Shown: one piece after another, positions 1,285-22,308 of the stretch
How positions within the stretch are numbered: the first letter of the stretch is position 1
Layout of the letters: each line of letters opens with the position of its first letter
NCBI RefSeq assembly: GCF_900177045.1
Contig: NZ_LT841358.1
Location: 1,017,396-1,081,395, forward strand
Length of the DNA: 64,000 bases
Reading direction: 5' to 3'
Source: Candidatus Nitrosotalea okcheonensis
GTDB lineage: Archaea; Thermoproteota; Nitrososphaeria; Nitrososphaerales; Nitrosopumilaceae
Translations under genes and position numbers: made by a program
Notes under the pieces: generated by a model
Told to the model about the DNA's origin: nothing
Databases searched by the model: none
What the model saw: only the letters and a program-made list of their open reading frames with translations

Positions 1285-2673
1285 TTGTCAAAATTTGCCC
1301 CACTACCACCAGCGCCGGTTATAATGACATGTTTTGGTCATTGCGGAATTGGCCTGGGTGCAGAAGCATATAGAAGACTATTGATTGATGTTGGAGCAGA
1401 TCCACTAAAACCAACATTAAAGGGCGAAAAGGACGAGTCCCGCATACTCAAAAGATATGGAAGTACAATTTTACGATTTCCAAACGCTTATGGTGGAAAT
1501 GAAATTCCACTCATCCCAAGAGCGCTTTTAATTGATCTAGATCCAAGAGCTGCCAATTTAATTTTACAGTCATATCCAGACCTGTTTGCCCTAAGAGACA
1601 AGCATGTAATTTCAGGTGCAGGCGGTGCTGCCAGAAACTGGGCAGAGGGCCGTACTAGATTCATCAAAGAAGTAAGTACAAAATATGACATGCAAAAACA
1701 GCTTGCAAGCCTTTCCCCAGAACCAGTAAGAGGTTTCACAATTCCATTTGCAATGGGAGGGGGCACAGGTGCTTCATTTGCAAGTGCGTTTATGCAATAT
1801 ATCAAAAAAGACACAAAAGAGCATGCTACAATTGCATCATTTGGATTATTGCCAGAATTTGGATGGGATCCTGTAATTCTAGAGGCATCTGCAATTAACA
1901 TAGTAATGAATCTTGAACACCAGATAAAATACAGTGATTGTTCCATATTATTTTCAAATAAAAGACTAAGAGAGCTTGCACAAAAACATGAAAAGAGGTT
2001 GGAAAAAATATCTTCCATAATAGACGACCTTCCAAAGGAACACGAGGTAGGTTGGAAGGACTATAGAGGAATGAATTTGATTGCAGCAAATGCAATTTCT
2101 ATGTTTATAGCATCTTTTGCAAGAGAGACAGAATGGGACATGTCGAACTATAGGACATGGCTTGCAACAAAGAGACCAAGATTTGCAGTTACTTGGGTAA
2201 TTCCAGTTATTCCTGAAGAGAGACAGTGGAGTTCTGATCTGATGACAAGTACCAAACACAATACAATGGAGGGAATTGTAGAACACATCAACAAGAAAGA
2301 AGATGCAGTACTGTTTGATATTGATGAAAACGACATAAGAGACAAGGGAGGACCAAAGGATTCCTGTTGTGTGCTTGTAAAAGTAAAAGGAGATTTTGAA
2401 GCAAAAGAAAGAGATGTACTAAAGAACATCATAAAAGATAGATTCCACATTGAGGAATCAAGAATGATATTTATCAAGATCCCAATTCTAGAAACGGAGC
2501 AGGCAAATGTTACAATACTTGTCAATACAAAGGCAATCGGAACAAAGATCTTAGAGATTGCAAGTGAAGCAGAAGCTTCATGGGATGCATTCAAAGACGA
2601 ATATGGCAAGTGGGGATTGTCTACTGAAGAATTCAAGGCAAGCCTTATGGACGTAGTCCATGAGTTTAGCTAG
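1285..2673 (+). CDS. Artubulin-like tubulin-family GTPase
   Basis: The 462-residue protein resembles eukaryotic tubulin more than FtsZ. T1 loop: GHCGIGLG (18-25), like tubulin GQCGNQIG. T3: IDLDPRA (83-89), like VDLEPTV. A NWAEGRT segment (118-124) is like tubulin NNWAKGHYT. T4 phosphate loop: GGGTGAS (158-164), tubulin GGGTGSG. The helix before T7, the segment WDMSNYRTWL (284-293) and the CCVLVKVKGD segment (361-370, tubulin CCLLYRGD) also align, as does a C-terminal helical region. Length matches tubulin, but there is no acidic tail. TTG is chosen because strand beta-1 (PVIMTCFG) needs the residues before the first ATG. It should bind GTP and polymerise, but the T7 Glu position looks like Asn, so hydrolysis may differ. 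Artubulins are known from Nitrosoarchaeum. Confidence 0.88.
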   Translation: MSKFAPLPPAPVIMTCFGHCGIGLGAEAYRRLLIDVGADPLKPTLKGEKDESRILKRYGSTILRFPNAYGGNEIPLIPRALLIDLDPRAANLILQSYPDLFALRDKHVISGAGGAARNWAEGRTRFIKEVSTKYDMQKQLASLSPEPVRGFTIPFAMGGGTGASFASAFMQYIKKDTKEHATIASFGLLPEFGWDPVILEASAINIVMNLEHQIKYSDCSILFSNKRLRELAQKHEKRLEKISSIIDDLPKEHEVGWKDYRGMNLIAANAISMFIASFARETEWDMSNYRTWLATKRPRFAVTWVIPVIPEERQWSSDLMTSTKHNTMEGIVEHINKKEDAVLFDIDENDIRDKGGPKDSCCVLVKVKGDFEAKERDVLKNIIKDRFHIEESRMIFIKIPILETEQANVTILVNTKAIGTKILEIASEAEASWDAFKDEYGKWGLSTEEFKASLMDVVHEFS

Positions 2674-2675
2674 AA

Positions 2676-3221
2676 ATGGCTGACTTTGCCTTTCTAGAGC
2701 AGGTTGCATCACGCATCAGAGAAAATAGGTCACAGCTAAAAGATACTGAGGACGAGCTTGCAACAGTGAATTTTAGAATTCATGAGATTCCCCTGAAGAG
2801 TCCAACAGAGTCTACATTTGCAAAAATGATAGGTCAAGACTACTATGATGCATCAGTAGATTTGGAAAAGGCAAAAGAGAAGTTAATTGCACAAAAAGAT
2901 GATCTCAGTACAAAAGTAAAAGAAGATATTGCATCATTCATAACAGAGTTTACTTCACATGACCTTGTCATTCCTCTAGAACCAAACCCAAAGATTGCAG
3001 ATGGTAACACTGTCTTTCACTACAAAAATAACGCAGTTTTTAATAACATACTTGCTATACTAGGCGAACTTTTGGGACTATCTCCACCAATACTTGTCAA
3101 GGACGTAATGTTCGCAGCCTCAGAAATAACAATCAAGGTAACAGATGAATATGAAGCCAAACAGAAATTTCTGAGTAGTATAAATGAAGTTCAGAAAACC
3201 TTATCAATCAAGAGAAAATAA
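2676..3221 (+). CDS. Predicted coiled-coil protein paired with artubulin
   Basis: The 181-residue soluble protein starts two bases after the artubulin stop, so it is almost certainly in the same transcript. Residues about 8-35 and 60-95 form charged heptad-like helices (RIRENRSQLKDTEDELA; DLEKAKEKLIAQKDDLSTK). A mixed C-terminal region (about 100-170) with predicted strands follows, and the tail is basic (SIKRK). There is no membrane segment and no recognised domain. The arrangement suggests a filament-binding or nucleating partner of the tubulin-like protein. This is inference from linkage and coiled-coil character only. Confidence 0.7.
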   Translation: MADFAFLEQVASRIRENRSQLKDTEDELATVNFRIHEIPLKSPTESTFAKMIGQDYYDASVDLEKAKEKLIAQKDDLSTKVKEDIASFITEFTSHDLVIPLEPNPKIADGNTVFHYKNNAVFNNILAILGELLGLSPPILVKDVMFAASEITIKVTDEYEAKQKFLSSINEVQKTLSIKRK

Positions 3222-21354: not shown

Positions 21355-22308
21355 ATGGAATTTCAGTTGAAAGATCCAGTTTTAATCATAGGTTTAGGAG
21401 GTGCAGGGTGCAAGCTGGCTGTTAACATCAAGGAGAAATTAGGTCACGACTGCCTCCTGATAAGTCATGACGAAAGAGATCTCAACCATGATGTCTCAAA
21501 GATTTTGATCGATACTAGCCCTATTTTGAATCCGTCAGCATATCTCATAAGAGGTGTGTCATTAGGTGCAAGAGATTCTATTGAAGAAAAAATTAAGGCA
21601 TATTCAACAGTAATGGTCATTGCAAACCTAGCAGGAAAATCAGGTGCCGCACTTGCTCCCATAGTATCCCAGATTAGCAAAGAATCAGGAAAGAGTACAC
21701 TCTCCTTTGGAATCATGCCATTCAAGTTTGAAAAAGACAGGATATTCTTTTCAGGGGTTTCTTTGAAGAGGTTGAAGACAAATTCAGATTGCACAGTAAT
21801 AATAGATAATGACGCATTACTTGAGAGTAACCCAGATCTCACTCCAGATGCATGCAATGGAATCACAAATTCTGCCTTGGTACATGTAATATCCACCCTA
21901 AAGAATTCATCATTACCACTTGAAACAAGTATACTTTCAACTAGCAAGGACATTTCAGATGTAGAGACTTCACTTAGAGATTCCATCAAGATGTTATATG
22001 AAGACGCATCACCAAACAACATCAAAAGCGCATTAATGTATGTAGTAGGCGGAAACAAAGTTCCAGTCGGAGTTTTGAACTCAATGGTAAATACAATAAG
22101 CGGAATTTTCGGAGATGATAGTACAAGAGTAAGCATGTCAGTCACAGCTGGAGAAAGTTCCAAAGTTGTCCTGCTCACTTCAATTGAAGGTGAGACACGT
22201 TTTGACAGATATGACCCACTTGGCTTCATATCAAAAGACAATGTACTTGATTGGGATGAGCCTGACGCAAGTGTGAAAATTGATCTTAATTTAGATCAAA
22301 TAGAATAA
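21355..22308 (+). CDS. Divergent thaumarchaeal FtsZ-like protein
   Basis: The 317-residue tubulin/FtsZ homologue has an intact T1 loop (IIGLGGAGCK, 11-20). A TVIIDNDALLE segment matches FtsZ's nucleotide-pocket strand. The T4 glycine loop GGGTGTGAAP is replaced by LAGKSGAALAP (92-102), and the T7 catalytic loop NxDxxD is missing. It therefore probably does not hydrolyse GTP normally. Thaumarchaeota divide mainly with CdvABC, and this degenerate FtsZ is a known lineage feature of unclear role. A TATA-like TTTTTTAATCAA lies about 35 bases before the ATG. Confidence 0.86.
   Translation: MEFQLKDPVLIIGLGGAGCKLAVNIKEKLGHDCLLISHDERDLNHDVSKILIDTSPILNPSAYLIRGVSLGARDSIEEKIKAYSTVMVIANLAGKSGAALAPIVSQISKESGKSTLSFGIMPFKFEKDRIFFSGVSLKRLKTNSDCTVIIDNDALLESNPDLTPDACNGITNSALVHVISTLKNSSLPLETSILSTSKDISDVETSLRDSIKMLYEDASPNNIKSALMYVVGGNKVPVGVLNSMVNTISGIFGDDSTRVSMSVTAGESSKVVLLTSIEGETRFDRYDPLGFISKDNVLDWDEPDASVKIDLNLDQIE

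Follow-up and report, generated by a model that had tools for sequence, protein, structure and literature searches.

A conserved small protein family encoded directly behind the artubulin genes of Nitrososphaerales, a candidate accessory of the artubulin cytoskeleton

The window analysed here, a stretch of 64,000 nucleotides from the ammonia-oxidising archaeon Candidatus Nitrosotalea okcheonensis, whose genome is a single 1.97 Mb contig, carries an artubulin gene followed at once by a small gene, called the partner below. The question raised by this locus is whether the product of the small gene works with the artubulin or whether its position is only an inherited arrangement. The name artubulin was introduced in 2012 for proteins regarded as possible relatives of the eukaryotic tubulin ancestor (Yutin and Koonin 2012, PMC3349469), and no experimental report on their function was found in the literature. 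An earlier note, made from the sequence alone, had proposed a coiled-coil filament partner and, should its association with artubulin prove conserved, a dedicated cytoskeletal module. Coordinates of the features discussed are given in Table 1.

Table 1. Features of the artubulin-partner locus (positions in the window)
Feature	Position	Strand	Details and basis
Artubulin gene, first of the pair	1285..2673	+	462 aa, TTG start; PF00091, E 2.3e-16; Asgard tubulin AtubA, E 6e-17
GGGTG tubulin signature loop of artubulin, residues 158-162	1756..1770	+	Invariant in the artubulins aligned
Intergenic gap between artubulin stop and partner start, 2 nt (AA)	2674..2675	+	Sequence
Partner gene, conserved unnamed family	2676..3221	+	181 aa; ATG at 2676, TAA ending at 3221
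N-terminal antiparallel helical hairpin (helices 4-51 and 60-92)	2685..2951	+	AlphaFold2 model; hydrophobic periodicity
Conserved hairpin tip F48-x4-G53-x4-D58	2817..2849	+	Alignment of hairpin-bearing homologues
C-terminal alpha/beta domain, residues 93-181, common to short homologues	2952..3218	+	AlphaFold2 model; alignment
G134-x-x-x-P138 loop of the partner	3075..3089	+	Conservation count, artubulin-linked versus artubulin-less homologues

The best matches of solved structure to the upstream gene product (the best 60 were compared) were Asgard and eukaryotic tubulins, with FtsZ not among these 60, and the protein is a tubulin-superfamily GTPase standing nearer to eukaryotic and Asgard tubulins than to FtsZ. 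In alignments it was about 77% identical to its orthologues in the genus g24, which we infer to be Nitrosarchaeum. The g24 artubulin locus carries genes for Snf7, dCMP/cytidine deaminase and family-B DNA polymerase (PolB) on one side, and MFS and mechanosensitive-channel genes beyond the partner. Snf7, dCMP deaminase, PolB and MFS surroundings are those published for the Nitrosarchaeum artubulin neighbourhood (PMC3349469), and since the locus of the g24 orthologue is this published neighbourhood, the window gene, an orthologue of the family-defining Nitrosarchaeum proteins by way of g24, is justifiably named artubulin. One artubulin segment, RETEWDMSNYRTWLA (window 2122-2166), was nearly constant even where the overall identity of homologues was no more than about 54%. 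On visual comparison it corresponds to the tubulin T7 loop, in which Asn replaces the second catalytic acid of tubulin and FtsZ, a replacement that may alter GTP hydrolysis. A second tubulin-superfamily ORF is located at 21571-21828 of the window (+ strand; G000:C1:1038966-1039223), in an open frame of 318 residues matching PF00091 with 53 bits. It lies about 19 kb downstream of artubulin, is not next to the partner gene and is probably the usual thaumarchaeal FtsZ-like protein.

The partner ORF is conserved at 60-99% identity over many genomes without internal stops, and is therefore a genuine gene. As the earlier note had observed, it starts two bases after the artubulin stop codon (TAG, 2671-2673). 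The same note's description of a charged, helical and coiled-coil-like N-terminal half was likewise borne out: residues 1-92 contain 13 K/R and 19 D/E, the AlphaFold2 model (72 homologues, mean pLDDT 93, pTM 0.79) folds this half into a hairpin with a pLDDT of about 87-96 in both helices, and the family-averaged hydrophobicity of the hairpin has a period of 3.5-3.6 residues (permutation p 0.06 and 0.005 for the two helices, respectively). At the hairpin tip, F48 and G53 were invariant in all 57 hairpin-bearing homologues, and D58 was found in 53 of them. The C-terminal domain is modelled as strands together with helices 123-133 and 158-180.

The searches agreed with the earlier note in recognising no family. 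No Pfam or NCBIfam model matched the window protein and no relative was found among PDB sequences, profile search included; the PDB profile matches were mostly coiled-coil designs and were not accepted as relatives. Weak Pfam matches to ZapB, MAP65/ASE1, Mis12 and HMMR, recorded over 72 homologues, were dismissed as ordinary coiled-coil similarity. The curated cut-offs were reached neither for ZapB (PF06005; weak matches in 5 of the 72 homologues, best E 0.001, and none in the window protein) nor for MAP65/ASE1 (PF03999; 2 of the 72, E 0.016 or worse), and prefoldin, SepF and ZapA were absent from the 25 best Pfam families over these homologues at E up to 0.05. Structural comparison of the partner model with Foldseek and VIA-align gave only generic helical hairpins (those of the seryl-tRNA synthetase arm, an SMC coiled coil, PI3K p85, FliJ and CHMP), all with Z under 10 or E over 0.1, and these were rejected; the searches were dominated by hairpin residues 1-99 and covered little of the C-terminal domain.

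The distribution of both genes was surveyed in 400 genomes of the order, with one profile for each protein. The artubulin profile matched 94 genomes and the partner profile 136. According to the earlier note, artubulin loci lacking this gene would have spoken against a dedicated module. The survey was strongly positive for linkage: the partner was present in all 94 artubulin genomes, so that artubulin without partner was met in no genome of the 400, and for 93 of the 97 artubulin copies it lay directly downstream on the same strand, with 5-21 nt, counting the stop codon, between the artubulin match and the partner. The remaining four copies were split between contigs, at contig ends or on partial contigs; the seeming exceptions to adjacency (G313, G002, G339 and a second partial copy in G346) were rejected on this ground. 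The position of the partner directly behind nearly every artubulin gene suggests that the two proteins act together, possibly as one cytoskeletal unit. Neither gene was found outside the order in a sample of 398 genomes from the phylum, where partner-profile matches with E of about 0.002-0.009 were judged to be due to chance. Artubulin was also absent from the viral contigs scanned, in which two remote tubulin-like fragments of 27-28% identity were observed.

Clustering of ORF neighbours at 74 loci showed that the partner is the sole cluster common to the artubulin loci of all lineages. The pair is preceded by a TPR gene and a small gene in Nitrosotalea and its close relatives, by an Nre-family gene (PF04894) in g22 genomes and by a Snf7-family gene, directly upstream and on the same strand, in g24 genomes; the f10 pair lies between a divergent vWA gene on its upstream side and an unnamed gene on its downstream side, and the f13 pair has an AAA_assoc_C gene as neighbour. 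At one f13 locus (L187:4290-7707), the AAA_assoc_C-domain gene and an ABC-type ATPase gene both precede the pair on the same strand. Since the pair remains constant while its flanks turn over, general synteny does not account for the linkage. The Snf7-family gene of the g24 pairs, which agrees with the published Nitrosarchaeum locus (PMC3349469), could point to the partner as an adaptor that connects artubulin with the ESCRT-III (CdvB/Snf7) machinery of cell division. This function appears very improbable, given that Snf7 adjoins the pair in a single genus and is missing from the pairs of Nitrosotalea, g22, g27, f3, f10 and f13, and that the text of PMC3835317 reports no proximity of artubulin and Snf7 in Nitrosotenuis.

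Duplications and losses also involved both genes. Genome G038 (97% complete, 1% contaminated) harbours two complete artubulin-partner cassettes in different surroundings (L101:1312-3247 and L102:5182-7123), a case of duplication of the module as a unit. In three lineages artubulin was lost and the partner had decayed. One g24 locus (L213) retains its Snf7 and mechanosensitive-channel flanks, without artubulin and with a broken fragment of the partner; a Nitrosotalea locus (L103) retains its TPR and downstream flanks, with artubulin gone and the partner reduced to residues 140-179; and at an f13 locus (L098) artubulin is absent and the partner contains stops and a frame break. No locus in the survey showed the reverse, a decayed partner behind an intact artubulin. 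That artubulin goes first and the partner follows is the pattern to be expected of a protein that serves artubulin. In two g27 genomes (G262 and G311), artubulins without the N-terminal GTPase half, lacking the first 228 and about 291 residues, were observed beside an intact partner (L164:3822-4880 and L165:4874-6125); these truncations, which count against such a service, may be real deletions, representing early decay, or assembly faults.

Maximum-likelihood trees of 40 artubulins and 46 partners agreed in every main clade (f13, f10, f3 and the f1 subgroups), an agreement limited by long branches and open forks. The distances among artubulins and those among partners were correlated at 0.98 overall and at 0.86 within f1/f3, the main family group, the partner evolving about twice as fast as artubulin. 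Such agreement and correlation are expected of any linked, vertically inherited genes and are taken as supporting evidence only.

The partner is not strictly exclusive to artubulin genomes. Among the 42 genomes with the partner profile alone, 31 belong to family f8 and 6 to family f2, two have the partner cut at a contig edge (G063 and G176) and three hold remnants or pseudogenes (G017, G048 and G247), so that outside f2 and f8 an intact partner without artubulin was met only at a contig edge. The f2 homologue, present in 6 of the 7 genomes of this Nitrosocaldus-like family, is full-length and diverged, and its gene stands close behind a radical SAM gene of the same orientation, in a constant, tubulin-free context of radical SAM and AMP-ligase genes (L096:4090-5766 and five other f2 loci); this suggests a second, artubulin-free role. 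The f8 homologues are short, diverged and devoid of the hairpin, but they still carry the LExxA motif at their N-terminus as well as the C-terminal domain. At the f8 loci (L196-L212 and L214), one group was observed beside genes for Nep1-like, RNase P subunit and S19e-like ribosomal proteins, and the other beside a dual-specificity phosphatase gene. The presence of homologues without artubulin in two families implies at least one other use of the family. The dedicated module proposed in the earlier note thus stands in part: pairing is found in all artubulin genomes, with adjacency wherever the contig allows it, whereas exclusivity fails for f2 and f8, the occurrence without artubulin that the note had held against its proposal being partly realised there.

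Under midpoint rooting, the f2 partners branch between those of f10/f13 and those of f1/f3, a position which suggests an artubulin-bearing ancestor of f2 and a later loss of artubulin, the root itself being unproven. Several other families of the order contain pairs of divergent ORFs of the tubulin superfamily, one of about 440 and one of about 900 residues, close to each other (G042:C9:37271-40623, G046:C93:34217-37546, G049:C1:599013-605452 and G056:C45:1704-5056) or, in G040, on separate contigs (C73 and C114). They are perhaps of the known FtsZ-like membrane-remodelling type.

The partner homologues without artubulin, each kept in its own conserved context in six Nitrosocaldus-like and 31 f8 genomes, are what would be expected if the partner had an independent role and its place behind artubulin were inherited operon structure, with co-transcription but no direct interaction. 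We nevertheless regard this explanation as improbable. Adjacency has outlasted a complete turnover of the flanks as well as a joint duplication, and the partner decayed in three losses of artubulin, while an independent gene should often have survived or relocated.

Comparison of artubulin-linked with artubulin-less homologues pointed to a particular region of the protein. G134 and P138 were invariant in the 51 artubulin-linked homologues, while G134 was found in only one of the 21 homologues from genomes without artubulin (1 of 6 and 0 of 15, in the only two such clades). In f2 this loop is shorter, and the f8 sequences keep P138 but have another residue, mostly H, in place of G134. Conserved with artubulin and altered in f2 and f8, the G134-P138 loop is the best candidate for an artubulin contact, a pattern for which two artubulin-less clades stand behind the comparison.

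The explanation that we favour, and hold to be reasonably probable, makes the partner an accessory protein dedicated to artubulin and expressed with it from a two-gene operon. The two genes would be co-transcribed and translated together, and the partner would probably bind artubulin directly, most likely by the C-terminal domain with its G134-P138 loop. The stiff hairpin could then serve as an arm whose conserved tip contacts another protein, another filament or the membrane, and the partner would link, place or regulate artubulin filaments or control their assembly. Prediction of the two proteins as a fused chain, in which the stop was read through at several in-frame natural pairs with a single stop (paired alignment, 35 rows), gave a mean pLDDT of 68 and a pTM of 0.58, the tubulin part itself being poorly modelled, so that the low pTM counts neither in favour of binding nor against it.

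The nearest rival to a linking function is an action on subunits. Tubulin cofactors and stathmin-like helical proteins are examples of assembly factors that handle subunits, and the partner might in the same way chaperone, sequester or nucleate artubulin subunits without decorating or cross-linking filaments. A subunit chaperone would account equally well for the close, stoichiometric linkage in an operon and for a helical hairpin whose tip is conserved, and decay of the partner after artubulin loss fits a client-specific chaperone. On the other hand, neither tubulin cofactors nor prefoldin came up as fold or sequence matches, in a structural comparison that covered little beyond the hairpin, and homologues persist in two families without the artubulin client. 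An assembly factor of this kind is considered rather unlikely, and the filament accessory is retained as the preferred reading.

Small dedicated accessories of tubulin-superfamily polymers, several of them coiled coils, are known from TubZ with TubY/TubR and FtsZ with ZapA/ZapB. The artubulin pair is alike in kind, but the partner has no Pfam match above cut-off and no match to an HTH domain as in TubR and TubY, and its domain order, hairpin first and alpha/beta domain last, is unlike that of ZapA. The prokaryotic tubulins BtubA/BtubB are likewise accompanied by a conserved accessory gene, although its product BtubC is a kinesin light chain-like TPR protein (PMC3349469), unlike the partner; the TPR gene near artubulin occurs two genes upstream and in Nitrosotalea and its near relatives only. 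Genes beside archaeal tubulin-like genes, including the neighbours of OdinTubulin, have been reported often to contain coiled coils (Santana-Molina et al. 2023, PMC9871819). The genes considered there are varied and unrelated, those beside OdinTubulin having no homologues, whereas here a single family runs across the artubulin clade. The report on Nitrosarchaeum (PMC3349469) concerns the same artubulin family, and our g24 loci show the same surroundings; its text stresses Snf7 and does not name the downstream gene, which its figure may draw as a 'conserved hypothetical protein', while in our data the constant neighbour is the downstream partner and not Snf7. No description of the partner family or of its constant tie to artubulin was found in the literature covered, chiefly the running text of openly available papers. 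While a polymer with a small accessory protein is a known kind of system, this family appears new, and so does its universal association with artubulin.

On a wider scale, artubulin and the partner could form an ancestral two-component cytoskeleton of Nitrososphaerales, with the partner as a MAP-like protein that cross-links, anchors or nucleates and that evolved alongside a tubulin near the base of the eukaryotic tubulins, independently of Asgard tubulins and of the bacterial Zap and Tub accessories. Taken as a whole, this scenario is put forward tentatively and as somewhat unlikely. The published picture of artubulin is also changed, because its previous main clue, the Snf7/CdvB neighbour, is confined to one genus and the partner is not. 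A partner found family-wide offers the first general handle on the artubulin system in the form of a defined set of two proteins, and its conservation is a reason against reconstituting artubulin alone.
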